A stretch of 64,000 nt of DNA. Origin: Paraburkholderia caballeronis. GTDB taxonomy: Bacteria; Pseudomonadota; Gammaproteobacteria; Burkholderiales; Burkholderiaceae. Of the stretch, positions 988-26,741 are shown piece after piece. Within the stretch, counting starts at the first letter, position 1. Each line of letters starts with the position of its first letter. The notes under the pieces are model-generated. The model searched no databases. It had not been told where the DNA came from and saw nothing but the letters and a program-made list of their open reading frames with translations. The position numbers were made by a program, and so were the translations under genes. The stretch covers positions 124,001 through 188,000 of the forward strand of contig NZ_FNSR01000003.1 in assembly GCF_900104845.1 (NCBI RefSeq). Direction: 5' to 3'.

Positions 988-1935
988 ATGTGCCAGCACT
1001 GCCCGATCAAGACGATTCACGGCCTGCAGCATCACTACGGCTGGGACAACAGCTTCGCGCCGGTGCTGCACGCGGCGCCCGGCGAACGGCTGGAGTTCGA
1101 CTGCCGCGATTCGAGCAACGGCCACTTCACGCGCGACTCCGTGGTGGGCGACGTGGTGTCGATGCCGTTCGACCGGATCAATCCGGTCAGCGGCCCGGTG
1201 TACGTCGACGGCGCGCAGCCCGGCGACGCGTTGCAGGTGACGATCGAACGTTTCGAGCCGGGCGGCTTCGGCTGGACCGCGAACATTCCCGGCTTCGGGC
1301 TGCTCGCGGACCAGTTCACCGAGCCGGCGCTCGCGCTGTGGAACTACGATAGCGCGAGCCTCGCGCCGGCCGCGTTCGGCCAGTTCGCGAAGGTGCCGCT
1401 GAAGCCGTTCGCGGGCACGATCGGCGTCGCGCCGGCCGAGCCGGGGCTGCATTCGGTCGTGCCGCCGCGCCGGGTCGGCGGCAACCTGGACATCCGCGAT
1501 CTGGCGGCCGGCACGACGCTGTGGCTGCCGGTCGAGGTGGACGGCGCGCTGTTCTCGATCGGCGACACGCATGCGGCGCAGGGCGACGGCGAGGTCTGCG
1601 GCACCGCGATCGAGAGCGCGATGAAGGTCGTCGTCAAGCTCGATCTGGTGAAGGGCGCCGCGCTCGCGGCCCCGCGCTTCAGCACGCCGGGGCCGGTCAC
1701 GCGGCACCTGGACGGCGCCGGTTACGAAGTCGCGACCGGCATCGGCCCCGATCTCATGCAGGCCGCGCGCGACGCGGTGAGCCGCACGGTGGACTGGCTG
1801 TGCGCGACGCACCACATGCCCGCCGAACAGGCGTACATGCTGTGCTCGGTTTGCGGCGATCTGCGCATCAGCGAGATCGTCGATCAGCCGAACTGGGTCG
1901 TGTCGTTCTACTTTCCGAAGATCGTGTTCGCATGA
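988..1935 (+). CDS. fmdA: Formamidase/acetamidase family amidohydrolase
   Basis: A 315-residue protein of the FmdA/AmdA family, whose members hydrolyse formamide or acetamide to ammonia and the acid. Family hallmarks are HHYGWDNSFAPVL near the N-terminus, the GDVVSMPF stretch and the central SIGDTHAAQGDGEVCGTA segment. The length is normal for the shorter bacterial formamidases. The ATG follows the previous stop directly, and the end overlaps the ATPase start by four bases (ATGA), so it is translationally coupled inside an ABC transporter operon. It may process either the imported compound or an amide released later in the pathway. The exact amide is unknown, and the symbol is given at family level. 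Confidence 0.88.
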   Translation: MCQHCPIKTIHGLQHHYGWDNSFAPVLHAAPGERLEFDCRDSSNGHFTRDSVVGDVVSMPFDRINPVSGPVYVDGAQPGDALQVTIERFEPGGFGWTANIPGFGLLADQFTEPALALWNYDSASLAPAAFGQFAKVPLKPFAGTIGVAPAEPGLHSVVPPRRVGGNLDIRDLAAGTTLWLPVEVDGALFSIGDTHAAQGDGEVCGTAIESAMKVVVKLDLVKGAALAAPRFSTPGPVTRHLDGAGYEVATGIGPDLMQAARDAVSRTVDWLCATHHMPAEQAYMLCSVCGDLRISEIVDQPNWVVSFYFPKIVFA

Positions 1936-3853: not shown

Positions 3854-4528
3854 TCAGCGCGCCACCCGATCGAGATAATGCTGGGCCGCGCGCGTCACAT
3901 GCCGCTCGGCCAGCAGCGCCGCCAGCGTCGCATCGCCTGACTGCACCGCGCGCAGGATCGCGGCGTGTTCGTTCCACGTGGTGCGCACCTCGTCGTCGCT
4001 CGCGTTGACGAACAGCATCCGCGTGCGGTCGCGCAGCGAGCGCATCAGATCGGACAACACCGAATTCGCACCCGCCGCATACAGCAGGTCGTGAAAACGC
4101 GCGTTCAGTTCGAGCAGCCCCGCCGTTTCGCCGTCCTCGACCTTCGTGTTGCCTTCCTGCAGCACCTGTTCGATCTGCGCGACGAGTTCCGGCGAGCAAT
4201 GCTCGGCCGCGAGCCGCGCGTTCAACCCTTCCAGCGTCGCCCGGATCTGCACCATCTCGCGCGCGACCGACGGGTCCAGCGACGCAACCACCGCGCCGTG
4301 GCGCGGCCGCACTTCGACCAGCCCTTCCGCCGCCAGCGCGCGCAGCGCCTCGCGCACCGGCACGCGCGACACGTCGAGTTCCTCCGCGATGCGGCCTTCG
4401 ATCAGGCGGTCGCCGGGCGCATAGGCGCCCGACGTGATGGACTGGCGCAACCGGGCGATCACCAGTTCCGACAACTGCTTGTGCATGATCGGCTCGCGCG
4501 CGCCTGTTCCGGTGGCTCCCAGCTCCAT
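3854..4528 (-). CDS. GntR family transcriptional regulator, FCD (FadR-like) subgroup
   Basis: A 224-residue regulator. The N-terminal winged helix (about residues 18-85) contains GDRLIEGRIAEELDVSRVPV and EALRALAAEGLVEVRPRHGA. The remainder is an all-helical FCD ligand-binding domain with the expected metal/ligand residues (the LNARFHDLL and WNEHAAIL helices). The start at 4528 is supported by GGAG seven bases upstream. A copy of the GTATAC-type dyad lies 68 bp upstream at 4596-4608, as expected for autoregulation. The same dyad precedes six other transcription units up to 16.7 kb, so this is the best candidate for the regulator of the whole catabolic island. Its inducer is unknown. Confidence 0.93.
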   Translation of the reverse strand: MELGATGTGAREPIMHKQLSELVIARLRQSITSGAYAPGDRLIEGRIAEELDVSRVPVREALRALAAEGLVEVRPRHGAVVASLDPSVAREMVQIRATLEGLNARLAAEHCSPELVAQIEQVLQEGNTKVEDGETAGLLELNARFHDLLYAAGANSVLSDLMRSLRDRTRMLFVNASDDEVRTTWNEHAAILRAVQSGDATLAALLAERHVTRAAQHYLDRVAR

Positions 4529-4595
4529 ATTCGATCTCCAGTCTGACAGTGGCCCTACTCCCCGGGCACAATTCTAGCTCACGCCCCTGGATTTC

Positions 4596-4608
4596 GTAGA
4601 CTGTACAC
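4596..4608. promoter_or_regulatory. Island operator copy 1 (GTAGACtGTACAC)
   Basis: Two six-base half-sites around one central base, matching the GTATAC-N-GTATAC pattern at 10 of the 12 half-site positions. It lies 68 bp upstream of the GntR gene and is probably an autoregulatory site. Confidence 0.6.
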
Positions 4609-4680
4609 ACGATACCGCACCGCGATCTGCGTCGGATCACGGAAGTTCGGGTCGACCGGAGCCAAAACCGAAGCGCGCGA

Positions 4681-5652
4681 TCAGCGCGCGACCGACGCCA
4701 TGAACCGCAGGATCTCGCCGCCGAGATACGCTTCGCCGGAATTGAAGTGCGCGACGATCGACGTATGGTTGTGGCCGCGCATCTGGATGAAGCGCGGCGG
4801 CACGCCGCGATGACGCAGCACGTCGACGAAGAACTGCGCGCCGTAACGGTCGAGAAAGCGGTTTTCGAATTCGGCGACCGCGATCAGCAGCGGCACGTCC
4901 GAGCGTGCCGCGTGGGTCAGCGGCGAGCGCGCCGCGTACAGCGCGCCGTCGTCGCCGAAATACGCGCGTACCGGCCCCGCGTTGGGATTGCGCGGATCGA
5001 CGTCGGCGAACAGCCGCGCGCTGATGAGCACGAGCCCGGCGATGTCGCTCTGCGCGACGCGCGCGGCCAGCGCCGGATCGAACAGGCACGCGGCCGCGTG
5101 CGCGCCGCCCGCCGAATGGCCGATCAGAAAGATCCGCGACGGGTCGATGCGCCAGGCCTGCGCGTGGCTCCGCACGTAGGCAATCGCATCCGCAACGTCC
5201 TCCGCGCCGCCCGGATACGGCGCTTCGTCGGCCAGCCGGTATTCGACGTTCAGCGCGACGACGCCCTGATTCGCGAACCAGTGGCACACGTTGTCGTAGA
5301 TTTCGCCGTTGACGCTCTTGCTGCCCCGCACGAACGCGCCGCCGTGCACGAACAGCACCGCATCGCGCAGACCGTCCGCACGGGCTCCGGCATTGGCCGC
5401 ATCGGCGACACCATCGGCCGGCTCGAACAGGTCGAGCGTCTGACGCGGACTCGCGCCGTAAGCGAGATCGCGCCGCACGCCCGCTTCGTTGCGCGGCGCG
5501 GCCGCGACGAGCGGCGTATAACAGTCGATCACGATCTTGCGATGGCCGACGATGTCGTCGTTCCAGCGCGGCCCGAGTTCGAGCAGCAACCGCCGCTGCG
5601 CTTCCGGCAACGAGCCGAACGGCTCGCGGGTGACCTTCGCGGCATTCACCAT
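4681..5652 (-). CDS. Alpha/beta hydrolase (esterase/arylformamidase-like)
   Basis: A 323-residue serine hydrolase of the alpha/beta fold. HGGAF at residues 103-107 forms the oxyanion hole, GHSAGG at 179-184 carries nucleophile Ser180, and GHNHTS supplies the likely catalytic His296. The arrangement resembles hormone-sensitive-lipase-type esterases and kynurenine formamidases, which cleave esters or N-formyl amides. The start at 5652 overlaps the end of the ferredoxin gene by seven bases; longer frames upstream are shadows. It is the last gene of a four-gene minus-strand operon with two ferredoxins and a small protein. Together with formamidase and amidase it suggests hydrolytic steps on amide or formyl intermediates. 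No signal peptide is seen, so it should be cytoplasmic. Confidence 0.85.
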   Translation of the reverse strand: MVNAAKVTREPFGSLPEAQRRLLLELGPRWNDDIVGHRKIVIDCYTPLVAAAPRNEAGVRRDLAYGASPRQTLDLFEPADGVADAANAGARADGLRDAVLFVHGGAFVRGSKSVNGEIYDNVCHWFANQGVVALNVEYRLADEAPYPGGAEDVADAIAYVRSHAQAWRIDPSRIFLIGHSAGGAHAAACLFDPALAARVAQSDIAGLVLISARLFADVDPRNPNAGPVRAYFGDDGALYAARSPLTHAARSDVPLLIAVAEFENRFLDRYGAQFFVDVLRHRGVPPRFIQMRGHNHTSIVAHFNSGEAYLGGEILRFMASVAR

Positions 5653-5924
5653 GACACGCTCACATTCCCGTTGACGAAGGTCTGGCAGGCCATCCGGTAG
5701 CCGGCCGCGAGTTCGTCGGCGCTCAGGTGACGCCGCTCCTTCTGCTTGATGTCGTCGGTATTCTCGCGGCCCTGCTCCACCTTGCACTTGCAGGTGCCGC
5801 AAAGGCCGCCGCCGCATTTGAACGGAATGCCGCCCTGCTCGCGCAGCGACACGCGCAACAGGTTGCTGTTCGGCTGCGCATCGACGGTCTTGCCGCCGTT
5901 GCTCAAAAAAGTAATCTGGATCAT
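5646..5924 (-). CDS. 2Fe-2S ferredoxin (plant/adrenodoxin-like fold)
   Basis: A 92-residue ferredoxin with the cluster motif CGGGLCGTC followed by a fourth cysteine in YRMACQ. This is the classical C-x4-C-x2-C...C arrangement of [2Fe-2S] ferredoxins. It would carry electrons from a reductase to an oxygenase in the cytoplasm. It sits between the unrecognised small protein (26 bp upstream) and the hydrolase (7 bp overlap). The likely electron donor is the flavin reductase at 10457-11497, and the likely acceptor is the diiron enzyme at 13574-14305; both links are inferred from shared operator sites. Confidence 0.9.
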   Translation of the reverse strand: MIQITFLSNGGKTVDAQPNSNLLRVSLREQGGIPFKCGGGLCGTCKCKVEQGRENTDDIKQKERRHLSADELAAGYRMACQTFVNGNVSVSW

Positions 5925-5950
5925 CGATCAGTCTGTGAGTCGAAAGCCGT

Positions 5951-6262
5951 TTACTGCGCATGCGCCGCTGGGCGACGCACGACACGCGCGTCCGTGTGGC
6001 CGTGGCCGGCCAGGTCCTGGATCGAACGCAACGCGTCGGGCACGCTGGAGAAATGCTCGAAGAACTTCGTCGGCACGAGGTTCACGGTCGTCGGCGAGTC
6101 GTCGTCGACGATCTTCACTTTCGCGTCGCCGCGAATCGCCGCGACGACGAACACTGCGACGTGACGCTCCCCGTAGAAATAATCGTGGACCTCGACCGGC
6201 TCGATGCCGTCCGTCGCCTCGCTGCGGTACTGCCCAGGCTTGCTGGTGAGAATGATGTACAT
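5951..6262 (-). CDS. Small protein of unknown function between two ferredoxin genes
   Basis: A 103-residue soluble protein that I do not recognise. It has no signal peptide, membrane segment or cysteine cluster. It begins MYIILTSKPGQYRSEA and has a central alternating beta-like stretch (HVAVFVVAAIRGDAKVKIVD), then a possible amphipathic helix (about residues 65-87) and a polar tail. It is translated from an ATG with GGA upstream and lies within 30 bp of a ferredoxin gene on each side, so it belongs to that operon. A role as an accessory or effector subunit of the oxygenase system is possible from position alone. Confidence 0.75.
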   Translation of the reverse strand: MYIILTSKPGQYRSEATDGIEPVEVHDYFYGERHVAVFVVAAIRGDAKVKIVDDDSPTTVNLVPTKFFEHFSSVPDALRSIQDLAGHGHTDARVVRRPAAHAQ

Positions 6263-6290
6263 GGTTTTTTCCGGGTCGTGCGGAACGGAT

Positions 6291-6599
6291 TCAGGACGCA
6301 GCCGGCGGATCGTCCTGCGCGAGTTCGATGTCGTGCTGGATCCACAACTGGCACGCGAGCCGGTAGCCGGCGTCGAGCCGCTCGCCTAGCTGCTTCTTTT
6401 CCTTCCAGTTCGGCGGCGGCAGATGCTCGCCGCCTGCAATCACGACACACGCGCATCGCGAACACTTGCCCATCCCGCACTCGTAGCGCAGGTGCGGAAA
6501 CGGAAACTGCCTGATGCCCGCGCGCACGACCAGGTTGGTGTTTTCCTTGACCGCCTCCCGATACACCTCGCCGTTCTTGCGGAACACGACGACTGGCAT
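6291..6599 (-). CDS. 2Fe-2S ferredoxin, second copy
   Basis: A 102-residue ferredoxin with cluster motif CGMGKCSRC and the fourth cysteine in YRLACQL. The start at 6599 (MPVVVFRKNG) has a strong GGAGGA six to ten bases upstream; the frame extends further upstream without such a site. It is the first gene of the minus-strand operon ferredoxin, small protein, ferredoxin, hydrolase, and follows an operator-like GTATAC element at 6682. Two different ferredoxins in one operon may serve two redox partners, or one may be structural; this cannot be settled from sequence. Confidence 0.9.
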   Translation of the reverse strand: MPVVVFRKNGEVYREAVKENTNLVVRAGIRQFPFPHLRYECGMGKCSRCACVVIAGGEHLPPPNWKEKKQLGERLDAGYRLACQLWIQHDIELAQDDPPAAS

Positions 6600-6674
6600 G
6601 AACTCTTCCTCCGTGCTGACTTTGAGCCCGCGATCCAAAGCGGCGCGGTATGGGCGAACAGTGTAACTCATTCG

Positions 6675-6695
6675 GAACATTGTATACCATTACAA
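6675..6695. promoter_or_regulatory. Island operator copy 2 (GTATAC core, weaker dyad)
   Basis: GTATAC at 6682-6687 lies inside an inverted repeat TTGTA-N6-TACAA (6680-6695), 76 bp upstream of the ferredoxin start. It is less symmetric than the other copies, but its position fits control of the minus-strand ferredoxin operon. Confidence 0.5.
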
Positions 6696-6776
6696 AAAAT
6701 AAACGGCGAAGACTACCTCGGATACACCGTGCTGAAAGGGTTCCACTGGGCAAGCTTTTCTATCGAAAGGCAAATA

Positions 6777-6791
6777 AGTATACCGTATACT
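6777..6791. promoter_or_regulatory. Island operator copy 3, perfect dyad AGTATACcGTATACT
   Basis: A 15-bp perfect inverted repeat around a single central C. It lies about 60 bp upstream of the ornithine cyclodeaminase-family gene and about 90 bp from copy 2, so the divergent promoters are each served by a copy. This is the clearest copy and gives the consensus GTATAC-N-GTATAC. Confidence 0.7.
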
Positions 6792-6849
6792 CTATAGAGT
6801 CTATGGGCACAGATTCCCATCCCGCCTCGAAAACCCAAAGGAGAACCCG

Positions 6850-7776
6850 ATGATTCATCTGACCGACCAGCAGATCGACGCGCTGATCGATTTCGGCCCC
6901 GCGATTCCCGTCCTCGAAGACGCATTCCGCCAGTTGGGCCGCGGCAACGCGGCGGTCCAGCGCCGCGTCCGCACGGAAGCGGGCGCGACGAAACTCTCGA
7001 CGCTCGGCGCGGTGCTGCCGGGCGCGGACGTCGCGGGCGCGAAGGTCTACACGACGCTGCGCGGCCAGTTCAGCTTCGCGATCATCCTGTTCCGTGCATC
7101 GGACGGCCAGCTACTCGCGACGCTCGACGCCAACGCGATCACCCGTCTGCGCACGGCGGCCACGACGACGATCGCGGTGCGCGCGCTCGCGAAACCCGGC
7201 GCGCGCACCGCGGCCATCTTCGGCACCGGCGTCCAGGGCCGCGCGCATGCGCACGCGCTCGCGCAGTTCACGGATCTGAAAGCGTTTCGCATCGTCGGCA
7301 TCGAGGGGGCGGCCGCGCTCGCGGACGAACTGAATGCGGCCTACGGCGCGCGCGGCGTGGAGGCCCGCGAGTTCGACGCGGCCGGCGCGATCGACGGCGC
7401 GGACGTCATCGTGACCGCGACGCGCGCCACCGGCCCGCTGTTCGACGGCAGCCGCGTGACGCCCGGCGCGCTGATCGCCGCGATCGGATCGAGCCTGCCG
7501 CATACGCGCGAACTTGACGACACGACCGTCGCGCGGGCAGCGCGGATCGTCGTCGAACTGACCGATCAGGCGAGAGAGGAAGCAGGCGACCTGCTGCTCG
7601 CGGCGCCGGGAATCGTCGACTGGAACGACGTCGTCGAACTCGGCGCGGTGCTCGAAGGGAAAGCGCCGGGACGCCGGCGCGACGACGATATCGTGCTCTA
7701 CGAGGCGCTCGGCATCGGCTTGCAGGACGTGGCGGTCGCCGCGCTCGCGTATCGCGCGTTCGTCGCGCGGCAATAA
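6850..7776 (+). CDS. Ornithine cyclodeaminase/mu-crystallin family protein
   Basis: A 308-residue NAD(P)-binding protein. The Rossmann motif GTGVQGRAHA starts near residue 125, Lys65 (in GAKVY) corresponds to the conserved substrate lysine, and RLRTAATT is the usual stretch before the nucleotide domain. Members act as ornithine cyclodeaminases, ketimine or pyrroline-2-carboxylate reductases, or alanine dehydrogenases, so the precise reaction is open. AAAGGAG stands six bases upstream of the ATG. It is transcribed alone and divergently from the ferredoxin operon, under the perfect operator copy. In this pathway it may reduce a cyclic imine or release ammonia from an amino-acid-like product. 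Confidence 0.88.
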   Translation: MIHLTDQQIDALIDFGPAIPVLEDAFRQLGRGNAAVQRRVRTEAGATKLSTLGAVLPGADVAGAKVYTTLRGQFSFAIILFRASDGQLLATLDANAITRLRTAATTTIAVRALAKPGARTAAIFGTGVQGRAHAHALAQFTDLKAFRIVGIEGAAALADELNAAYGARGVEAREFDAAGAIDGADVIVTATRATGPLFDGSRVTPGALIAAIGSSLPHTRELDDTTVARAARIVVELTDQAREEAGDLLLAAPGIVDWNDVVELGAVLEGKAPGRRRDDDIVLYEALGIGLQDVAVAALAYRAFVARQ

Positions 7777-7788
7777 CGCAACGGCGAA

Positions 7789-7819
7789 ACCCGGCGCGGC
7801 TTCACCGCCTGCGCCGGGT
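7789..7819. terminator. Hairpin between convergent genes
   Basis: A perfect nine-base stem (ACCCGGCGC / GCGCCGGGT) with a 13-base loop, starting 12 bases after the cyclodeaminase-family stop. There is no clear T-run, so it is a weak or attenuating terminator candidate. Confidence 0.4.
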
Positions 7820-7908
7820 CGTCCGGATCAACCTGCAACCGAGACTCGCGCCACGCGCAACGCGCAACGCGGCACGCGCCGCCTGACTTCGATCGCAGCC
7901 AACCACCG

Positions 7909-8652
7909 TCATCCCGCTCGCGGACGCCGCACGCCGATCCGCGCCGCGAGCGGCACCAGCGCGGCCACCAGCACGCACAACGCGATGCGCGTCGCGCCGT
8001 CGGTCATCCGGCCGTCGCCGAGCATGTCCAGCATCCGGCGCAGACCGTCGCCGACGTGCGGATCGGCCAGCAGCATCTCGCCGGCGATCCAGCCGAGCAG
8101 CGCCGCGCCGACCTGCACCACGAACGGAAACCGCTGCAACACCGCCAGCATGATCGTGCTGCCGAGCGCGATCACCGGCGCGCCGACGGCCAGACCCGCG
8201 AGCACGATGCCCATGCGCGTACTTGCCGGCAGCGTTTCCGCGACGGCCGCCGTCGCGAGACCGTTGTCGAGGCTCATTGCGAAGTCCGCGAACAGGATCA
8301 GCATGACCGCGCGCCACAGCGCGGTCGCGCCGGCCTGCGCGGAATCGTCGTCCGCGCCGTTCTCGCCGCGCAGCATCTGGACGCCGATCCACACCAGCAG
8401 CAGCGCCGCCGCGACGTGCATGTACGGGATCGCGAGCAGAAAGCCGATCGCACCGACCATCGCGACCCGCAGCACGACGCCGAGCGCCGTGCCGATCCAG
8501 ATGCCCAGCCGGCGCTGCGAGTCGGGAAGCGAGCGGCAGGCCATCGCGATCGCAATCGCGTTGTCGCCGCCCAGCAGCACGTTGATGAAGACGATCTGCA
8601 GCACGGCCAGCGTCTGTTGCGCCGTTTCCGGCGCGAGAAAACCCAACGTCAT
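7909..8652 (-). CDS. TerC/YjbE-like integral membrane protein
   Basis: A 247-residue protein made of about seven hydrophobic helices. Two family signatures are clear: LLGGDNAIAIA near residue 27 and FADFAMSLDN in the second half, the paired acidic motifs in membrane helices of TerC/YjbE proteins. Relatives are linked to metal ion (often manganese) export or handling. It starts 12 bp after the permease gene, so the two are cotranscribed. Its presence in a catabolic island is unusual. It may support metal supply or removal for the diiron enzyme, or assist the permease; both are guesses. Confidence 0.82.
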   Translation of the reverse strand: MTLGFLAPETAQQTLAVLQIVFINVLLGGDNAIAIAMACRSLPDSQRRLGIWIGTALGVVLRVAMVGAIGFLLAIPYMHVAAALLLVWIGVQMLRGENGADDDSAQAGATALWRAVMLILFADFAMSLDNGLATAAVAETLPASTRMGIVLAGLAVGAPVIALGSTIMLAVLQRFPFVVQVGAALLGWIAGEMLLADPHVGDGLRRMLDMLGDGRMTDGATRIALCVLVAALVPLAARIGVRRPRAG

Positions 8653-8664
8653 CGACGGCGCGCC

Positions 8665-10263
8665 TCAACTGATCGACACGGCGACGAGCGTCGCCACGAC
8701 GAGACCGCAGACGACGGGCAAAAACAGCGCCCGCACCGCATCGAGCACCGGCACGCGCGCAAAACCGGCCACCGCGATCAGCGAAGACCACGCGACCAGC
8801 GTGCCGCCGCCGGTCCACACCGCGCCCATCTGGCCGATCGCGGCCAGCGTCGCGGCCGGCATGTGGACCATCGGCGCGAGCGCGCCCGACAGCGAGCCGG
8901 TCAACGGCAAGCCGGCGAAACCCGAGCCGTCGATGCCGGTGATCATCCCCATCAGCAGGACGCCGAACGACACGAACAGCGGGCTCTGCGGAATCGACTG
9001 GCTGCATGCCTGCACGAGTTCGAACAGGAACGACGGCACGTGCGCGCCCGCCGCCACGCCGAGGATCGGCCCCGCCGTGCTCGCATCGCCGACGAAGAAG
9101 AACCCGGCGATCGGCAGCACCGCGCCCATCGCCTTGAACGCGAACACGAAGCCGCCGATGATGTGCTCGGCGGTCCGGTCGAGAAAACCCTTGCGGCCGT
9201 GCGAAAGCGTCGCGAGCATCATCAGCACCGCGGCCATCCCGCCGATCAGCGCGGCCGCGTCGCCGCCGCGAATCGCGCCCGAGCCGATCATCCCCGGGCT
9301 CATCATCACGACGACCACCGCGAGGAACGCAAGCGGCGTCGCGACCGCGAACACCTTCGACCACATCTCGTGGCGGTCCACCGCCACGGCGATCGCGTCG
9401 AGCGGCAGCGCGGCCGCGCCGTCCGGCGAGAACGACAGCGACGGGCCGGGTTCCGCCGACAGCGCCGGCTGCATGGGCGGCAGCGGATCGCCGACGCCGC
9501 TCGTGCCGCGCGCGAGTTCGGCCTTCGCGAAGCTGCCCTGATGCTCTTCCTGTCCCGCTTCGGCGACCCGTTCCCCCAGTGCCTCCCATGCGACGAGATT
9601 CGCGGCCGACGGCGCCGCCACCTTGCCGCGGACGACGAAGAACCACGTGAGCGCGAGCGACACCGCGCCGACCACCAGCGACAACGTGAAGGCCATGTTC
9701 GCGACGGACAGCATGTCGGTCCCTGCCGCCTTGGCGCTGATGCCCGGCGCGACCTTGATCACGTAGTCCGACGACAGCGCCATTCCCTGCCCCGCGATCG
9801 CGATCGCCGCCGCCGCGCCGAGCGGCGGCAGGCCCGCATAAACGGCGGCCGGAATCAGGATCGCGCCGACCAGCGGCACGGCCGGCGTCGGCCAGAAGAA
9901 CAGCGAGATCAGATACGTGATCAGCGCGAGGATGAAATACGCGACGTGTCCGTTCAGCATGATCCGCTTGAACGGCTGCACCATCCGCACGTCGGCGCCC
10001 AGCTCGCGCAGCCCGTTGAGCAGCGCGGTCATCAGCGCGATCACGAGGAAGATGTTGAAGAGTTCGTGCGCGGCGGTCAGGCTTCCCATGAAGATGGCCT
10101 GAAAGCCGGTCAGCAGCTTCCCGGAAAAGGCGAAGGCCACCGCGAAAGTCGCGAGGATCGCGGGTACGACGACGTTGGCGCGAAAGATCATCGTCACGAT
10201 GATCGCGACTACGCCGGCCAGGTAGCAGAAATGCGCTGGCGTCAAGGCAGCAACGGAATGCAT
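8665..10263 (-). CDS. Large multi-pass permease, substrate unknown
   Basis: A 532-residue inner-membrane protein with a dozen or so hydrophobic helices split by a hydrophilic, low-complexity loop at roughly residues 215-290. The general look (repeated GxxxxP-rich helices, a WPTPAVPLVGAILIPAA loop, a second half with GIDGSGFAGLPLTGSL) resembles ion-coupled organic-acid transporters of the GntP/DcuC/CitM type, but I cannot place it in a named family. It is the first gene of a two-gene unit with the TerC-like protein, and an operator copy lies 48 bp upstream. The context makes it a likely importer of the island's substrate or an exporter of an intermediate. Confidence 0.75.
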   Translation of the reverse strand: MHSVAALTPAHFCYLAGVVAIIVTMIFRANVVVPAILATFAVAFAFSGKLLTGFQAIFMGSLTAAHELFNIFLVIALMTALLNGLRELGADVRMVQPFKRIMLNGHVAYFILALITYLISLFFWPTPAVPLVGAILIPAAVYAGLPPLGAAAAIAIAGQGMALSSDYVIKVAPGISAKAAGTDMLSVANMAFTLSLVVGAVSLALTWFFVVRGKVAAPSAANLVAWEALGERVAEAGQEEHQGSFAKAELARGTSGVGDPLPPMQPALSAEPGPSLSFSPDGAAALPLDAIAVAVDRHEMWSKVFAVATPLAFLAVVVVMMSPGMIGSGAIRGGDAAALIGGMAAVLMMLATLSHGRKGFLDRTAEHIIGGFVFAFKAMGAVLPIAGFFFVGDASTAGPILGVAAGAHVPSFLFELVQACSQSIPQSPLFVSFGVLLMGMITGIDGSGFAGLPLTGSLSGALAPMVHMPAATLAAIGQMGAVWTGGGTLVAWSSLIAVAGFARVPVLDAVRALFLPVVCGLVVATLVAVSIS

Positions 10264-10310
10264 GGGAATCCTCTACTCAGGTGAGGGTCGGGGGACGGGA
10301 AAGGCTGCTT

Positions 10311-10323
10311 GTATACTATATTC
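10311..10323. promoter_or_regulatory. Island operator copy 4 (GTATACtATATTC)
   Basis: The left half-site is perfect and the right half-site matches 4 of 6. It lies 48 bp upstream of the permease ATG on the minus strand. No other gene start is nearby, so it should control the permease-TerC unit. Confidence 0.6.
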
Positions 10324-10339
10324 ACTTGCGTGCGATCAA

Positions 10340-10359
10340 AAAAAACCGCGCGGTTTTTT
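10340..10359. terminator. Bidirectional intrinsic terminator
   Basis: A GC core CCGCGCGG flanked by A6 and T6 forms a symmetric stem with a T-run on either strand. It lies about 100 bp after the reductase stop on the minus strand and should end the operon that starts at the diiron enzyme gene. Confidence 0.65.
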
Positions 10360-10456
10360 CGGGGTGATTCAGGGTGAAACAGGCCGGGATTTCTCCCGTA
10401 GGTCGAAGCGCCGGCCGCCCGCCCGAAACGGGCCGGCAACCGGCGGGGACTTCGGT

Positions 10457-11497
10457 TCAGCGACCGGCTTCGAGCGGCGTTGCGCGCTGGAACGTGAAGC
10501 CGTCCGCATACAGGTAACGCACGCTCGCGCCATGCCGCGCGAACACGCGTTTCGCGTCCGCGATCATGTCCGGCGAGCCGCACAGGTACAGCGCGTGTTC
10601 GGACAGGTCGTCGTGATCGGCCGCCACCGCGTGCTGGACGTAACCGCGCGCGCCGTCCCATTCGTCGCCGGCCCGCGACAGCACCGGCGTATAGCTGAAG
10701 TCGGCGTACTGCGCGGACCACGCAACGAATTCGTCGTGCAGATACAGGTCGGCGCACGTGCGCCCGCCCCAGTACAGCGCGACCGGCGGGCAGTCGCCCG
10801 AAGGCAGCAGCGCGGCGAGCATGCTTCTGAGCGGCGCGATGCCGGTGCCGGTCGCGGCCATCACGATCGGGCGGTAATCCTCTTCGTGATAACCGAAGCC
10901 GCCGAGCGGCAACTCGACGTCGAGCGCATCGCCGGGCCGCAGCGCGTCGAGCAGCGCGCCGGTGAAATAACCGCCGTCGATGCGCCGGATGTGCAACTCG
11001 ACGCTCGTCTCGCCGGGCAGCGACGCCATCGAGAAACTGCGCGCGCCGGCGTCGCCGAGCAGCACATTCAGATACTGGCCGGGCCGGAAGGCGAACGGCG
11101 TTTCGCGGTCGAGCGACAGCACGAGCCGCTGCACGTCGTTGCACAACGGCCCGGACGCGACGACGGTCGCGCGCCGGCGTTCAGGCGCCACCGGCGCGGG
11201 CAGCGGTCGGTCGGTGCTGATCCGCAGGTCGGCCAGCGCCTTCGCCTGGCACATCAGCGCGTAACCGGCCGCCGCTTCGTCGGGCGACAGCGCGAGCGGC
11301 GGCTCGTCGTACTGCACGCGGCCGTCGAGCAGCTTTACCCGGCAGGTGCCGCAGCCGCCGAACGCGCATTCGGACGGCAGCCGCACGCCCGCGCGCAACG
11401 CGGCGTCGAGCACGGTCTCGCCGGACGACGCGTCGAAGCTGCAATCCGCCTCGATCCATGTGACACGGTGGTTCACGATGACGCCCTCTTCGTTCAC
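10457..11497 (-). CDS. 2Fe-2S/FAD/NAD(P) oxidoreductase (oxygenase reductase component)
   Basis: A 346-residue three-domain reductase. An N-terminal plant-type ferredoxin domain (about 8-95) has cysteines 44, 49, 52 and 83. An FAD domain follows with RSFSMAS, then an NAD(P) domain with GTGIAPLRSML and CGSPDMI. This order is that of BenC/phenol-hydroxylase-type reductases, which pass NADH electrons to an oxygenase. The GTG start at 11497 overlaps the GlcG-like stop (GTGA); a GTG at 11476 is an alternative. It is the last gene of the operon diiron enzyme, aldehyde dehydrogenase, GlcG-like, reductase, so its electrons most likely feed the diiron enzyme directly or through the two ferredoxins at 5.6-6.6 kb. 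Confidence 0.92.
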   Translation of the reverse strand: MNEEGVIVNHRVTWIEADCSFDASSGETVLDAALRAGVRLPSECAFGGCGTCRVKLLDGRVQYDEPPLALSPDEAAAGYALMCQAKALADLRISTDRPLPAPVAPERRRATVVASGPLCNDVQRLVLSLDRETPFAFRPGQYLNVLLGDAGARSFSMASLPGETSVELHIRRIDGGYFTGALLDALRPGDALDVELPLGGFGYHEEDYRPIVMAATGTGIAPLRSMLAALLPSGDCPPVALYWGGRTCADLYLHDEFVAWSAQYADFSYTPVLSRAGDEWDGARGYVQHAVAADHDDLSEHALYLCGSPDMIADAKRVFARHGASVRYLYADGFTFQRATPLEAGR

Positions 11498-11973
11498 AGC
11501 TTGATGTCGGGCTGCACCAGCACTTCGCGGCCGGTGTCGCGCAGCAGGTCGCGCAGCGCGGCCAGGCCCGCGAGCGCGGCCTGCGTGTCCTGCTCGCCGT
11601 TGCCGCCGCTCAGCCCGATGCCGCCGACGACGTGTCCGTCCACGACGACCGGAAAGCCGCCGACGAACGCCGCAAAGCGCCCCTCGAAGCTCAACTGGAT
11701 GCCGAACGCCTCGTTGCCGGGCAGCGCGGGGCCGTTCGGCGGCGTGGTGAACAGATGCGTCGAGCGCTTGTGGCCGGCCGCGGTGAACGCCTTGTTCCAT
11801 GCGATCTGCGGGCCGGTGATGCGGCCGCCGTCCATGCGTTCGAGCGCGAGCGGGAAACCGCCGTCGTCCACGACGCAGACGGACTCCAGCACGCCGATTT
11901 CAGTCGAGCGCGCGATGGCGGCCGCGATCATCGCGCGGGCTTCGGCGAGTTCGAGTTTGAAGAATGCTTTCAT
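11494..11973 (-). CDS. GlcG/HbpS family (DUF336) protein
   Basis: A 159-residue protein of the GlcG/HbpS family, small alpha/beta proteins found beside many catabolic operons, some of which bind heme or small ligands. Typical stretches are SVCVVDDGGFPLALERMDG and GGFPVVVDGHVVGGIGLSG. No signal peptide is seen, so it should be cytoplasmic. It lies 37 bp after the aldehyde dehydrogenase and overlaps the reductase start by four bases. Its biochemical role in such operons is not established; a chaperone, sensor or accessory role is possible. Confidence 0.88.
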   Translation of the reverse strand: MKAFFKLELAEARAMIAAAIARSTEIGVLESVCVVDDGGFPLALERMDGGRITGPQIAWNKAFTAAGHKRSTHLFTTPPNGPALPGNEAFGIQLSFEGRFAAFVGGFPVVVDGHVVGGIGLSGGNGEQDTQAALAGLAALRDLLRDTGREVLVQPDIKL

Positions 11974-12010
11974 GAGGGAATCGAAAAATCGGTGATCGGA
12001 TGAAAGAAGG

Positions 12011-13465
12011 TCAGGTGCCGCGATAGACCGTCTTGCTTTGCAGATAAAACGCGAGGCCGTCGCGGCCCGATTCGCGGAAGGTCGCGGTGCTCGACTGCTT
12101 GAGGCCGCCGAACGGCGCGTTGATCAGGTTGCCGGTGGTCGTGCGGTTGATCTTCACGGTGCCGGCCTCGATGTCTTCCGCGAAGCGGTGCATCAGGCGC
12201 GGGTCGCGCGTGACGAGCGCCGCCGACAATCCGTATTCCGTATCGTTCGCGACGGCGATCGCGTCGTCGTAGCCGTCGACGTCGATGACCGCGATCACCG
12301 GGCCGAAGATCTCTTCGCGCGCGATCCGCGCGGTGCGCGGCACGTCCGCGAACACGGCCGGCTCGACGAAGTAGCCGTGCGCATAGTCGCCGTCAGTCAG
12401 CCGGTTGCCGCCGGTCACGAGCGTCGCCTCGCGGCGGCCCGTGTCGATGTAGTCGAGCACCGTGCGCAACTGGTTCGCCGTCGCGAGCGGCCCGATGTCG
12501 GTGCCGGGCGTCATGCCGCTGCCGATCCGCAGCGCGGCCGTTTTCACGGCGAGCCGCTCGACGAACGCGGCGCGAATCGAGCGTTCCACCAGCACGCGGC
12601 TCGTGCCGGTGCACGCCTGGCCCGACAACGAAAAACCGCCCTTGATCGTCAGGTCGACCGCGCGATCGATGTCGGCGGCGTCCAGCACGATCAGCGGATT
12701 CTTGCCGCCCAGCTCCATCTGCGTGCGGGTCGACAACGAAGCGGCGCGGTGAATCTGCTCGCCGGCCGAGGTCGAACCGGTGAACGAGATCGCTCGTACC
12801 GCCTTCGCGCCGACGATCACCGGCCCGACTTCGCCGGCCTTGCCGGTAACGAAGTTCAGCACGCCCTTCGGCACGCCCGCTGCGACGAACGCCTCGGTCA
12901 GACGCAGCCCGGAAAGCGGCGCATCGGACGACGGCTTGAACACGACCGTGTTCCCGCAGACGAGCGCCGGCGCGATCTTGCGCGCCGGAATCGACACCGG
13001 GAAATTCCACGGCGAGATCACGGTGACGACGCCGAGCGGTTCGAGCTGCGTGTACACCGTCAGGTCCGGATCGTCGTTCGGATAAGTCTCGCCGCCGAAC
13101 GACTGCGCTTCGATCGCGTAATAACGCAGCGTCTGCGCGGCGCGAAGGAACTCGTCTTTCGCGAGCGCCTTCTGCTTGCCCTCTTCGCGCGTCAGTTCTT
13201 CGCCGAACTGTTCGGCGTGCGTTTCGAGGTACGCCGCGGCGTCCAGCAGGATCTTCGCGCGCGCCGACGGCGTGCGCTTCTTCCACGCGGGGAACGCCGC
13301 CGCCGCCGCGCGCACGGCCGCTTCGGCGTCGGCGGCGCCGGACGCCTGGAAGCGTCCGACGACGTCGCGGGTGTCGGCGGGATTCACGTTGTCGAAGGTT
13401 GCGCCGCCGAGGCTCGCGCACCATTCGCCGTCGATGAGGTTCTGGTACGTAGGGACGTGAGTCAT
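12011..13465 (-). CDS. NAD(P)-dependent aldehyde/semialdehyde dehydrogenase
   Basis: A 484-residue member of the aldehyde dehydrogenase superfamily, close in look to succinate/2-oxoglutarate semialdehyde dehydrogenases. Motifs include SPWNFP, FTGSTSAG, the general-base region MELGGKNP, the catalytic cysteine in GQACTGTSR and EEIFGPV. The start at 13465 has AGGACGG seven bases upstream; a slightly longer frame lacks this. It is the second gene of the operon headed by the diiron enzyme and would oxidise an aldehyde arising from oxidative cleavage or deamination to an acid. The substrate chain cannot be deduced. Confidence 0.92.
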   Translation of the reverse strand: MTHVPTYQNLIDGEWCASLGGATFDNVNPADTRDVVGRFQASGAADAEAAVRAAAAAFPAWKKRTPSARAKILLDAAAYLETHAEQFGEELTREEGKQKALAKDEFLRAAQTLRYYAIEAQSFGGETYPNDDPDLTVYTQLEPLGVVTVISPWNFPVSIPARKIAPALVCGNTVVFKPSSDAPLSGLRLTEAFVAAGVPKGVLNFVTGKAGEVGPVIVGAKAVRAISFTGSTSAGEQIHRAASLSTRTQMELGGKNPLIVLDAADIDRAVDLTIKGGFSLSGQACTGTSRVLVERSIRAAFVERLAVKTAALRIGSGMTPGTDIGPLATANQLRTVLDYIDTGRREATLVTGGNRLTDGDYAHGYFVEPAVFADVPRTARIAREEIFGPVIAVIDVDGYDDAIAVANDTEYGLSAALVTRDPRLMHRFAEDIEAGTVKINRTTTGNLINAPFGGLKQSSTATFRESGRDGLAFYLQSKTVYRGT

Positions 13466-13573
13466 GAAAAGACCGTCCTGCAAAAGGGGAAAAACAGGCC
13501 CGCCGGCGAGCCGGCGCGCGTCGATGCGCGCCGTTCGCCCGCGGGCTCGATCAGGCTGCGCGGGCGCGCGGAC

Positions 13574-14305
13574 TCAGGCCGCGAGGCCCAGCTCCGGCAG
13601 CGGGATCTCCTTTTCGACGTAGTCGTAATAGAGCGCGGTCGTGTACAGCAGACGCATCTGCGCGCCCACTTCGCAGATCTTCAGGCAACGCTGCTGAAGC
13701 TCCGGCGTGTTCGCGTGCTCCAGCACGATCTGGTAGCCGCGTTCGCCGTGAATCTCGTCGGACACGATGTGCAGGTCGAAGAACTCCACCTCCTCGTCCG
13801 TGAACTTGTACAGCTCGCGCAGCGTCGGCGTCTGCTTGCGGTAGATCGACGGCACCTGCGATTCGAGGCCGACCACGAGCGCGGCCACCGCGACCACCGG
13901 GTCCTCGCGCATCGCGACCGAATAACACCAGCCTTGCAGGCCGCGCGTGGTCGGGGACATGTTGTCCGGATCGATCACGCGTTCGCGCGTCGTGCCGCAC
14001 GCTTCGGCAAAACGGATCAGCAGGTCCGTGTGGCGGTCGCCGCCGATCTCCTCCTCGTACATGTTCGCGAGCAGGAAGTCCTTCGCCTCGGTCATGTGGT
14101 CCGGCGTGCGCGCGTACAGATAACCGAGGTAGTCCGCGAACGGGCCGACGTAGTGATAGTGGTTCTCGGCCCAGCGCGCGAGATGCGCGCGGCTCAGCTT
14201 GCCGGTCGCCCATGCGACGCTGAACGGCGCCTTGTTCGCGCTCTTGCCCTTGATTGCTTCTTCGAGCGCCGCGCGGAACGCGTCGCGGCTCATCAGTTCT
14301 GCCAT
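13574..14305 (-). CDS. Heme-oxygenase-fold diiron oxidase/oxygenase (HDO superfamily)
   Basis: A 243-residue all-helical protein of the TenA/PqqC/CADD-like group. Counting from the ATG at 14305 (AAGGAG six bases upstream), Glu85, His92, Glu148, His179, Asp183 and His186 reproduce the order and spacing of the six metal ligands that I recall for Chlamydia CADD (E81, H88, E142, H174, D178, H181). That marks it as a dinuclear-metal oxidase/oxygenase rather than a cofactor-free TenA or PqqC. Known relatives carry out N-oxygenation, C-C cleavage or decarboxylation. It is the first gene of an operon with aldehyde dehydrogenase, GlcG-like protein and reductase, directly downstream of an operator copy. 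It is probably the key oxidative enzyme of the island; the substrate is unknown. Confidence 0.87.
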   Translation of the reverse strand: MAELMSRDAFRAALEEAIKGKSANKAPFSVAWATGKLSRAHLARWAENHYHYVGPFADYLGYLYARTPDHMTEAKDFLLANMYEEEIGGDRHTDLLIRFAEACGTTRERVIDPDNMSPTTRGLQGWCYSVAMREDPVVAVAALVVGLESQVPSIYRKQTPTLRELYKFTDEEVEFFDLHIVSDEIHGERGYQIVLEHANTPELQQRCLKICEVGAQMRLLYTTALYYDYVEKEIPLPELGLAA

Positions 14306-14361
14306 TTCCAGCTCCTTCGGTGGGGGTGAAACCCGCATCGACTGGTTCGATGCGAGATTCG

Positions 14362-14374
14362 GTACACTGTATAC
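14362..14374. promoter_or_regulatory. Island operator copy 5 (GTACACtGTATAC)
   Basis: Matches the consensus dyad in 11 of the 12 half-site positions. It lies 57 bp upstream of the diiron enzyme start on the minus strand and 41 bp from the end of the porin gene. Confidence 0.7.
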
Positions 14375-14414
14375 ATTAATTCTGACGATGCCAACCCGGA
14401 AAAATCCGTGTGGG

Positions 14415-15509
14415 TCAGAAGCTCTGGCGCAGCCCGATGCCGAGGGCGCCCTGCTTCTGGCCGCTCGACGCGGAGATGAACTGCGTGACCTGCGCGAACG
14501 GCGCGTCGCGCAGCGCGCGCTGGAACGTCCCGAACGCGTAGACCTGGGTGCGCTTGGACAGCGAGTAGGTCAGCATCGCGTTGTATTGCAGATAACGCGG
14601 ATCGGCGTTCGTCGCGTCGACCTGGCCGTCGGTGTAGGTGACGCCGAGCCCGGCCGACAGCGCCGGCGTGAAGAAGTACACGCCGTTGACCTCGTAGTTC
14701 ATGAAGTGGACGTCCTGCCCTTCGAAGCCGTCCTTGTACTGCGCGCTGGTGATGTCCGCGCTGAGCTTCGCCGGGCCGAACGTGTACGACGCGCCGCCGC
14801 CGACGGTCAGGAACGAGTGGGCGGCCAGCGCATAGCTGCCGACCGCCGAATTCGTCGCCTTCCAGAACGTGCCCTGGGTGCGGTCGCCCGGCTGGCGCGC
14901 GTAGGTCATCCCGAAACCGACGTACAGCGGACCGTCCGCATAGCTGCCGCCGAGGCTCCACATGCTGTCGCGGCCGAAGCTGCCCGGCTGGCCGCCGAAG
15001 CTGTACAGCGCGCTGCCGGTGAAGCCGCCGTAGCTGTTGGCGTAACGGACCGAGTTGTCGACCCGCACGCCGCGGTTGGTCAGGTCCATGTCGCCCGGAT
15101 GCTCCATGTACACGGACCAGTCGGCGGCGGTCAGTTGCGCGATGTAATCGACCATCGACTCGTACTGGCGCCCGAGCGTGATCTTGCCGTAGCGGTCGTT
15201 TTCCAGCCCCACGTACGCCTGCCGGCCGAACATCAGGCCGCCCTGGCCGAGCGAGCCGTCGGTGACGTCGAAGCCGTTTTCGAGGCGGAAGATCGCCCGC
15301 GAACCGCCGCCGAGGTCTTCCGAGCCCAGCAGGCCGAACCGGCTGCCGCGCGTCGTGCCGCTGGCCATCGCCCACGTGCGGCCGCCGCCCTGATTGCTCG
15401 TGTACTGGATCGACGCGTCGATCAATCCGTACAACGTCACGCTGCTCTGCGCATGCGCGGTGATCGAAACACAGGCCAGCCCTGCTGCACTCCAAAGCGT
15501 CTTTTTCAT
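14415..15509 (-). CDS. Trimeric general porin (Gram-negative, Burkholderia type)
   Basis: A 364-residue outer-membrane porin. The signal peptide MKKTLWSAAGLACVSITAHA precedes QSSVTLYGLID, the usual mature start of betaproteobacterial porins. The body has the alternating aromatic beta-strand pattern (for example FGLLGSEDLGGG and LGRQYE), and the end LGIGLRQSF has the terminal Phe used by the outer-membrane assembly machinery. The start at 15509 was chosen because AAGGA lies upstream and it gives a clean signal peptide. It is preceded by its own operator copy at 15601, so it probably admits the island's substrate through the outer membrane. Confidence 0.95.
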   Translation of the reverse strand: MKKTLWSAAGLACVSITAHAQSSVTLYGLIDASIQYTSNQGGGRTWAMASGTTRGSRFGLLGSEDLGGGSRAIFRLENGFDVTDGSLGQGGLMFGRQAYVGLENDRYGKITLGRQYESMVDYIAQLTAADWSVYMEHPGDMDLTNRGVRVDNSVRYANSYGGFTGSALYSFGGQPGSFGRDSMWSLGGSYADGPLYVGFGMTYARQPGDRTQGTFWKATNSAVGSYALAAHSFLTVGGGASYTFGPAKLSADITSAQYKDGFEGQDVHFMNYEVNGVYFFTPALSAGLGVTYTDGQVDATNADPRYLQYNAMLTYSLSKRTQVYAFGTFQRALRDAPFAQVTQFISASSGQKQGALGIGLRQSF

Positions 15510-15600
15510 CGAAGGGTCCTTTTTTCTCATGGGGAATCGGTCAATCGGATGCGATGGAACCGGTCGGCGGCGGCTGCGTGAATGCGCCGCCTGAAATTAA

Positions 15601-15613
15601 GTATGCTGTATAC
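15601..15613. promoter_or_regulatory. Island operator copy 6 (GTATGCtGTATAC)
   Basis: Matches the consensus dyad in 11 of the 12 half-site positions. It sits about 92 bp upstream of the porin start and 38 bp from the end of the amidase frame, so it should act on the porin promoter. Confidence 0.7.
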
Positions 15614-15650
15614 AAAAATACTGAACAGCTTTTTTCAGCGTCGTGCGGGT

Positions 15651-16658
15651 TCATCCTGGGTGGGGCTCGGTGCGCGGCGCGGCGCGCGGGAAATGACGGC
15701 AAAATCCGGCGCGCACGGCCTCCTGCGCGGCGTCGAGCGCCGGACGCGCGTTCCACGTCACGCGCGCGCCGGCTTTTTCGAGCGAGCGTCCCAGCTCGAC
15801 GATGCAGCGCTCGACTTCGCCGTCGACTTCGGCAACCGGATGGTTCGCCAGGACGCCGAACCGGATGTGGCGCAGGCTCGTCGCGTCGCAATGCGGCAGT
15901 TCCAGACGCAGCGCGGCGGCGGCGTCGCCGGGCGGGGCAACGATCGCGCCGAGGACGCATTCGAGATCGCGCGCCGAACGCGCGAGCGGGCCGGCGACGT
16001 TGATGTCCGGCACGGCGACACCGCCGGGCAGGCCGTGTCCCCGCAGCGACACGATGCCGTGCGTGCTCTTGTGCGAAAAGATCCCGCAATAGTGGGCGGG
16101 ATTGCGGATCGACGAACCGATGTCCGAGCCGACGTCGAAGAACGACATCCCGGAGCAGACCGCCGCCGCGCTGCCGCCGGACGAGCCGCCCGGCGTGCGG
16201 GCGAGGTCGCGCGGATTGCGCGTGGTGCCGTAGATGTCGTTGTAGCTCTGCCAGTCGCGCAGCCAGATCGGCACGTTGGTCTTGCCGAGCAGCACCGCGC
16301 CGGCATCGAGCAGACGCTGGACGACGTCCGCGTGGCGCGGCGGATAGTTGTCGCGACAGGCGGGGTCTCCAACGGTCGTCGGCCAGCCTTCGACGTCGAA
16401 CGACTCCTTGATCGTGAACGGAATCCCGTGCAGCGGGCCGCGCACCCGGCCGGCGCGCCGCTCGGCGTCGCGCTCGCGGGCCACGGCTCGCGCCCGTTCG
16501 AAGTCGGACACGACGACGGCGTTGACGGCGGCGTTGTCTTCATTAAACGCGGCTTCGCATTCGGCGACGAGCGTGCCGGAGTCGACGTCGCCTCGACGCA
16601 ATGCGTCGGCGGCTTGCCAGAGCGGGGTATGGCGATGGACTGCGGGGTCGGAAAACAT
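15651..16658 (-). CDS. Amidase signature family protein, C-terminally short
   Basis: A 335-residue protein of the amidase signature (GatA/AmiE-type) family. The Ser-cisSer-Lys catalytic set is visible: Lys in PFTIKESFD, Ser in the TPGGSSGGSAAAV segment and Ser in SDIGSSIRNPAHYCG. Family members normally run to about 450-500 residues. Here the frame stops soon after GVLANHPVAEVDG, and the last 20 residues (rich in Arg, Pro, His) do not look like the family. The next 50 bp lead straight into the porin operator, so the missing C-terminal part is not nearby. It may be a recent deletion and inactive, or a shortened but active enzyme. An operator copy lies 20 bp upstream of its ATG. Confidence 0.78.
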   Translation of the reverse strand: MFSDPAVHRHTPLWQAADALRRGDVDSGTLVAECEAAFNEDNAAVNAVVVSDFERARAVARERDAERRAGRVRGPLHGIPFTIKESFDVEGWPTTVGDPACRDNYPPRHADVVQRLLDAGAVLLGKTNVPIWLRDWQSYNDIYGTTRNPRDLARTPGGSSGGSAAAVCSGMSFFDVGSDIGSSIRNPAHYCGIFSHKSTHGIVSLRGHGLPGGVAVPDINVAGPLARSARDLECVLGAIVAPPGDAAAALRLELPHCDATSLRHIRFGVLANHPVAEVDGEVERCIVELGRSLEKAGARVTWNARPALDAAQEAVRAGFCRHFPRAAPRTEPHPG

Positions 16659-16677: not shown

Positions 16678-16690
16678 GTATTCTGTATAC
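16678..16690. promoter_or_regulatory. Island operator copy 7 (GTATTCtGTATAC)
   Basis: Matches the consensus dyad in 11 of the 12 half-site positions and lies 20 bp upstream of the amidase ATG on the minus strand. It is the last copy seen; none was found beyond this point. Confidence 0.68.
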
Positions 16691-26535: not shown

Positions 26536-26611
26536 TGGTGGAGGCAGACGGGATCGAACCGACGACCCCCTGCTTGCAAAGCAGGTGCTCTCCCAGCTGA
26601 GCTATGCCCCC
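26536..26611 (-). tRNA. tRNA-Ala (anticodon TGC)
   Basis: A 76-base gene on the minus strand: acceptor GGGGGCA pairs with TGCCTCC, the D arm is GCTCAGCTGGGAGAGC, the anticodon loop is TTTGCAA, the T arm has GGTTCGATCC and CCA is encoded. It lies in the 16S-23S spacer. Confidence 0.97.
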
Positions 26612-26664
26612 CGTGTCTTGCGTACACACGCGGGAGACTGTGGCTCGCACCCTCCGGACCAGGA

Positions 26665-26741
26665 TGGTGGGTCTGGCTGGATTCGAACCAGCGACCCCCG
26701 CCTTATCAAGACGGTGCTCTAACCGACTGAGCTACAGACCC
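26665..26741 (-). tRNA. tRNA-Ile (anticodon GAT)
   Basis: A 77-base gene on the minus strand with acceptor GGGTCTG / CAGACCC, D arm GCTCAGTCGGTTAGAGC, anticodon loop TTGATAA, T arm GGTTCGAATCC and encoded CCA. It is first in the spacer, before tRNA-Ala. Confidence 0.97.

Follow-up and report, generated by a model that had tools for sequence, protein, structure and literature searches.

What does a diiron enzyme of the heme-oxygenase fold do when its gene travels with a reductase and two ferredoxins of its own? The question is raised by a 64,000-nucleotide stretch of Paraburkholderia caballeronis DNA (GCF_900104845.1; positions 124,001 to 188,000 of NZ_FNSR01000003.1, contig C3 of a 7.1 Mb genome in three contigs; hereafter the window). 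There, the original prediction had placed such an enzyme at the head of an operon with a flavin/2Fe-2S reductase and an aldehyde dehydrogenase (ALDH), with an operator shared with two ferredoxins, and had read the ensemble as a degradative pathway without known counterpart. Our analysis points to an NAD(P)H-driven multicomponent oxygenase built on a heme-oxygenase-fold diiron-type protein (HDO), which would serve a short inducible catabolic route with the ALDH as last step, a reading to which we give a probability of about 0.6. From the original prediction, the HDO identity, the dedicated electron-transfer genes and the lack of a known match hold up, whereas the degradative role is suggested by gene content.

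The HDO matches PF14518 at 123 bits, and its AlphaFold2 (AF2) model has a predicted local distance difference test score (pLDDT) of 92.8. The nearest solved structure, both by sequence and by fold, is the dimetal protein CADD, and UndA, BesC, HrmI and PolF are all among the fold matches. Its six predicted ligands (Table 1) are invariant in 18 aligned rows, and all six align to the ligands of CADD. The similarity ranking does not indicate a grouping with the cofactor-free TenA/PqqC proteins: CADD ranks first by sequence and in the fold search with the model of 13574-14305, which keeps the six putative ligands. PqqC/TenA, metal-independent according to the available text of a 2026 HDO review (PMC13108848), is a weaker sequence match, and the PqqC equivalog model TIGR02111 scores 51 bits against a cut-off of 240. 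The model for CADD-type p-aminobenzoate (pABA) synthases, TIGR04305, reaches 96 bits for a cut-off of 200, and the two residues that CADD sacrifices, Tyr27 and Lys152 (available text of PMC11965152), align to Ser29 and Gln158, so that the sacrificial residues are replaced.

In the window, the genes succeed each other on the minus strand in the order amidase, porin, HDO, ALDH, HbpS-like protein, reductase, permease, TerC, ferredoxin 2, p103 (a protein of an undescribed family), ferredoxin 1, alpha/beta hydrolase and GntR-FCD regulator; the sole plus-strand exception is a gene of the ornithine cyclodeaminase (OCD) family, between TerC and ferredoxin 2. Among contigs of genomes sampled one per species, 493 of 519 matched stretches encode an HDO relative, and the best 80 of these stretches yielded 79 loci (L009-L087, with L036 and L037 sharing a genome), 66 of them full length; because counts rest on these best 79, they lean towards close relatives. 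The HDO is 86-97% identical to that of the window throughout, Azospirillum and an alphaproteobacterial metagenome-assembled genome (MAG) included, its closest relatives being in Paraburkholderia. Carriers of the cluster include Paraburkholderia xenovorans LB400 (L059) and Cupriavidus necator (L019, L020, L032). Its partners diverge more (ferredoxins 65-92%, ALDH 66-85%, reductase 51-74%). At bit-score thresholds that we set ourselves, HbpS, both ferredoxins, p103, ALDH, reductase and regulator are each present in 63 to 66 of the 66 full loci (Table 1), and the sole full locus without p103 (L009) has it elsewhere in its genome.

Two gene blocks are nearly fixed. Ferredoxin 2, p103 and ferredoxin 1 are contiguous, in this order and on one strand, in all 75 loci having the three, and HDO, ALDH, HbpS and reductase run in this sequence along a single strand in 74 of the 75 loci having the four, with intervening genes possible, for example in Achromobacter, where the run is HDO-ferredoxin 2-p103-ferredoxin 1. 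The ferredoxin block lies downstream of HDO on the same strand in 46 loci, upstream on the opposite strand in 27 and upstream on the same strand in 2 (n=75), and Azospirillum canadense (L085) carries all seven genes on one strand, as HDO, ferredoxin 2, p103, ferredoxin 1, ALDH, HbpS and reductase. A variant from the family sample (L152, genome G962; HDO 74%) keeps the ferredoxin 2-p103-ferredoxin 1 block; the reductase that follows it showed no Fer2 domain, which would make sense if ferredoxin 1 (spotted by eye in the frame translation) accepts its electrons. The neighbours there are a GMC oxidoreductase, a major facilitator superfamily (MFS) transporter, an alpha/beta hydrolase and an ALDH that comes closest to models for aminobutyraldehyde/betaine-aldehyde dehydrogenases without reaching their cut-offs; the GMC oxidoreductase and the ALDH suggest that the oxygenase product in this variant is an alcohol.

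The association also holds genome-wide. In 299 genomes of the family, an HDO was found in 61 (E 1e-40) and the p103 profile matched in exactly those 61 (E 1e-3, with at most 16 first-look candidates scored per genome). Across 398 genomes of the phylum, an HDO was found in 6 at 1e-20, four of them at 86-100% identity and the others at 46% and 32%; p103 is present in 4, all with a close HDO, and neither of the two genomes with a more distant HDO gave a p103 match. A further sample of 385 genomes, drawn from the class to which G287 belongs, gave no HDO genome other than two already found. Since genera are unevenly represented in these samples and related genomes are not independent, no probability is attached to the co-occurrence. 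Six plasmid records also carry an HDO (four from Cupriavidus, two from Caballeronia), of which one annotated region names no substrate. Some genomes have two or three HDO copies (L057, L036/L037 of P. tropica, G998, G1024). A 46% HDO relative (L150, genome G139) adjoins a Rieske-domain protein, in a genome without a p103 match.

The small protein p103 had no match in Pfam, NCBIfam, PADLOC or PHROGs. In the PDB, the single sequence had no match and the profile just one, at chance level (E 1.8). No convincing relative came from Foldseek or VIA-align 2, and no fold match to the effector proteins MmoB/TmoD, although a missing match does not prove a new fold. Just 18 relatives appeared in a protein database search, the named ones from Burkholderia/Paraburkholderia, whereas translated searches revealed a far broader spread. 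In all 12 Pandoraea loci among the 79 (L043, L045-L050, L052, L053, L055, L056, L058), p103 and ferredoxin 1 form a single in-frame open reading frame (ORF) of 196-197 amino acids. The shared genomes, the fixed block and this fusion bear out the dedicated ferredoxins of the original prediction; as for the dedicated reductase, the gene-linked NAD(P)H/flavin/2Fe-2S enzyme that marks an MboAB-like partner system is present in nearly all full loci. It is of the BenC/toluene-4-monooxygenase reductase class, and MboB is of the same kind according to its description.

A common operator ties the parts together. Sites in the cluster follow GTATACnGTATAC, and the window holds 29 matches to GTATACNNNATAC with at most two mismatches (some palindromes being counted on both strands), against 7.7 expected, with none of 100 shuffles reaching 29. 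They precede GntR, ferredoxin 2/OCD, permease, HDO, porin and amidase, those at the permease and the regulator being weaker. In the 200 bp upstream of HDO, the closest match to GTATACNGTATAC is exact in 2 of 78 loci and differs at one position in 72, at two in 2 and at five in 2, while in one base-shuffled copy per locus it has at least 3 mismatches in all 78, which amounts to an operator in 76 of 78 real sequences versus 0 of 78. HDO and ferredoxin 2 both have a site upstream in the window, as had been proposed, and the GntR protein is presumed to bind it.

The conserved multicomponent HDO system is real and, as far as the open-licence literature goes, undescribed: we found no characterised cluster of this kind there, in agreement with the original prediction, although a described one may have been missed among subscription papers or on bioRxiv. 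The available text of the HDO review covers about a dozen characterised HDOs, acting mainly on fatty and amino acids and presented as biosynthetic; a term search of that text finds no 'ferredoxin', and 'catabol' once, on heme catabolism (PMC13108848). UndA, BesC, HrmI and PolF, which have their fold in common with our HDO, are all biosynthetic. CADD and NePabS, self-sacrificing pABA synthases, differ in the two residues replaced here, in the multi-gene redox cluster and in the score below the TIGR04305 cut-off. The closest parallel is mangotoxin synthesis, where MboA has a dedicated NAD(P)H-flavin-2Fe2S reductase, MboB, according to the available text (PMC13185094); the earlier generalisation that most described HDOs draw on non-specific electron donors therefore has an exception in print. 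MboA/MboB, as described there, is biosynthetic with a single reductase partner, whereas two ferredoxins, p103, HbpS and ALDH are added here, in an apparently catabolic regulon.

Methane monooxygenase (MMO), toluene-4-monooxygenase (T4MO) and BenC-type Rieske systems combine an oxygenase with a FAD/2Fe-2S reductase, a ferredoxin and a small partner protein. The layout of the present cluster is similar and its reductase matches theirs, but the oxygenase of MMO/T4MO is a ferritin-like hydroxylase and here it would be an HDO. In the proposed working, the FAD of the reductase would accept hydride from NAD(P)H, and electrons would then travel one at a time, first through the 2Fe-2S domain of the reductase and next through the two ferredoxins, to the diiron HDO. 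p103 may dock on ferredoxin 1, on HDO or on both, and position or gate electron delivery. HDO would activate O2 and oxygenate or cleave a small substrate, probably one containing nitrogen, and the resulting aldehyde would be converted to an acid by the ALDH; alternatively, HDO may yield an alcohol, to be oxidised by the GMC oxidoreductase of the L152 variant. GntR-FCD would repress the genes until substrate or product is present, and amidase with MFS, alpha/beta hydrolase, OCD, permease and porin may be accessories that import or unmask the substrate. We consider it possible, though tentatively, that a catabolic HDO is encountered here for the first time, in a multicomponent oxygenase of a new class. 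Its heme-oxygenase-fold diiron hydroxylase would work with a dedicated reductase, two ferredoxins and p103, an effector-like protein whose fold is unrecognised, and would parallel MMO and toluene monooxygenase on an unrelated scaffold; many Burkholderiales and some other Pseudomonadota would use it to degrade an unrecognised common small compound.

The catabolic direction is suggested by the GntR-FCD regulator, the porin, the amidase with its MFS transporter, and the ALDH. An alternative is a biosynthetic or protective cluster, in which HDO would make or detoxify a small bioactive compound that the permeases export. This would agree with the natural-product, biofuel and cofactor-synthesis roles of HDOs in the available text of the review (PMC13108848), with a TauE/SafE-type permease in 42 of the 79 loci and, in four loci, with a neighbouring MFS gene of the DHA2/EmrB type. 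It nevertheless seems unlikely, as none of the cluster genes scanned is of assembly-line, ligase or PLP type, the porin, the amidase with its MFS and the GntR-FCD regulator suggest uptake, and HDO is kept at 86-97% identity over the 79 best loci, as far as Azospirillum and the alphaproteobacterial MAG.

XylT-type ferredoxins rescue dioxygenases, and ferredoxins and p103 might by analogy serve to repair or activate the enzyme, re-reducing or assembling its diiron site, instead of acting as catalytic donor. Two small ferredoxins beside a reductase that already has a 2Fe-2S domain, and an HbpS-like protein in all full loci that could handle iron or oxidants, would fit such a role, as would the lability of diiron clusters in HDOs noted in the available text of the review (PMC13108848). 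We regard it as distinctly improbable: in L152, the reductase without detected Fer2 domain follows ferredoxin 1, so that a ferredoxin seems necessary for flux, and MboB is reported, in the available text, to be necessary for multiple MboA turnovers (PMC13185094).

Very improbable, in our view, is the desulfonation of a small sulfonate by HDO to an aldehyde, oxidised by ALDH, and sulfite, exported by TauE/SafE. Besides the TauE/SafE-family permease (two members scanned), it could draw on an ORF near the cluster common to 15 Achromobacter loci (L083:7763-8998 and 14 others); the single member scanned encodes a sulfite dehydrogenase of the SorA type. However, the TauE group includes no Paraburkholderia or Pandoraea locus, the window having TerC in that place, PF01925 is broad and its matches weak (57 and 74 bits), and SorA may belong to an unrelated neighbourhood. 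A CADD-type self-sacrificing pABA synthase, for which CADD as nearest solved relative and the TIGR04305 match would speak, is scarcely credible given the sub-threshold score and the replaced Tyr27 and Lys152.

Several observations weigh against the inducible catabolic oxygenase that we favour. Upstream of ferredoxin 2 (260 bp, at most two mismatches), the operator occurs in only 23 of 75 loci versus 2 of 75 shuffled, a weaker signal that is no surprise where the block comes after HDO, as in many loci. In the whole genome at one mismatch, the operator pattern gave 10+10 strand matches and its reversed control 7+7. The cluster itself accounts for 8 of the 20, and no other site is prominent; as outside matches do not exceed the control, nothing else in the genome marks the pathway. 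GntR is only 42-51% identical in Achromobacter and Azospirillum. Amidase (34/66), OCD (36/66), hydrolase (19/66) and porin (9/66) are none of them universal in full loci, so either the substrate route varies or these accessories are incidental. The DHA2/EmrB-type MFS gene (L033, L037, L044, L059; one scanned) fits export as well as import. Finally, the MAG contigs L071 and L086 lack ALDH and reductase nearby, and their genomes gave no ALDH at E 1e-100 and reductase-family matches of only 33-39%, a weak empty result since the bins may be incomplete.

Concerning the substrate, annotation was rejected as a guide: the NCBIfam matches of ALDH, OCD, amidase and hydrolase all fall short of the curated cut-offs, and the matching Pfam models are broad ones. 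The ALDH class and the OCD, amidase, hydrolase and gamma-glutamyltranspeptidase neighbours would be consistent with a small amine, amino-acid or amide derivative. A gamma-glutamyltranspeptidase gene adjoins the HDO cluster in two loci (L085:7294-8754, from Azospirillum canadense, and L151:2139-4687), from which gamma-glutamyl amides are suggested as a lead. The L151 cluster, in a genome of another class than the window's, also has DUF1028 and dipeptide-type ABC transporter genes beside it. Among further accessories, a TauE-like permease and an MFS transporter are present in 37 full loci each, and the amidase is always accompanied by MFS. The permease at 8665-10263 has no Pfam, NCBIfam or PDB match by single sequence and none in the PDB by profile, and has many invariant columns among 8 aligned rows. 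An operon at 22-3695 of the window (plus strand), encoding a family 5 solute-binding protein (SBP), an FmdA/AmdA amidase and an ABC ATPase, with two permease-like genes upstream in its own genome (L156), was considered as the importer and set aside: beside the cluster in L153, L154 and L155, FmdA and SBP had no match, and the ABC ATPase had one in L155 only, at 31%. The genes preceding this operon, judged by eye, are presumably AmiC/AmiR-like.

Part of this equipment has been lost in the present strain. The window's amidase has 335 amino acids, while five of six amidases checked in relatives have 498-502 and the sixth is an ORF of 558 (L010). Aligned to L010, the sequence matches up to window position 15727 and again from about 15521, two points that lie about 2.1 kb apart in the relative; L014 and L016 agree. 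A deletion of about 1.9 kb has thus taken away the amidase gene's 3' third together with the MFS gene found between amidase and porin in relatives, and the closest MFS that this genome has elsewhere shares 50% identity with it. The amidase-using route is therefore probably damaged in this strain, while the HDO core looks intact.

Table 1. Genes and operator sites of the HDO cluster, in window coordinates, with the number of full-length loci (n=66) holding each gene
Feature	Position	Strand	Remarks	Full loci
GntR-FCD regulator, presumed reader of the operator	3854..4528	-	PF00392 + PF07729	63
Operator-like site upstream of GntR	4596..4608		2 mismatches; several relatives have comparable sites before GntR	
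Alpha/beta hydrolase, accessory	4681..5637	-	PF20434/PF07859	19
Ferredoxin 1 (2Fe-2S)	5646..5924	-	PF00111	65
p103, undescribed family	5951..6262	-	103 aa; no Pfam/NCBIfam match; AF2 pLDDT 88.6	65
Ferredoxin 2 (2Fe-2S)	6291..6599	-	PF00111; start 6599 set by conservation (alignment), ORF open from 6680	65
Operator-like site before ferredoxin 2	6675..6687		second, weaker	
Operator between ferredoxin 2 and OCD genes	6778..6790		exact palindrome	
Ornithine cyclodeaminase/mu-crystallin family (OCD), accessory	6850..7776	+	PF02423	36
TerC family, YjbE subfamily, accessory	7909..8652	-	PF03741; TIGR03717 above cut-off	8
Membrane permease, no family assigned	8665..10263	-	532 aa	55
Operator-like site upstream of permease	10311..10323		weaker	
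Reductase, BenC/T4moF class	10457..11497 (start approximate)	-	2Fe-2S + FAD + NAD domains	64
HbpS/GlcG-like protein	11494..11973	-	PF03928	66
ALDH	12011..13483	-	nearest NCBIfam 2,5-dioxovalerate (alpha-ketoglutaric semialdehyde) dehydrogenase, below cut-off	64
HDO, heme-oxygenase-fold diiron-type protein (predicted)	13574..14305	-	243 aa; PF14518; ligands E85 H92 E148 H179 D183 H186	
Operator upstream of HDO	14362..14374		counterpart upstream of HDO in relatives	
Porin	14415..15530	-	PF13609	9
Operator upstream of porin	15601..15613			
Amidase, truncated	15651..16658	-	335 aa; PF01425	34
Operator upstream of amidase	16678..16690			

Elsewhere in the window, tRNA-Ala and tRNA-Ile genes lie side by side at 26536-26741, probably in the spacer of an rRNA operon.

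If the proposed system is correct, the HDO fold would support multi-turnover, multicomponent oxygenation for growth. The genes would also name the likely physiological electron donors of such an enzyme, and an undescribed family of small proteins, p103, would be added that is tied to HDO.

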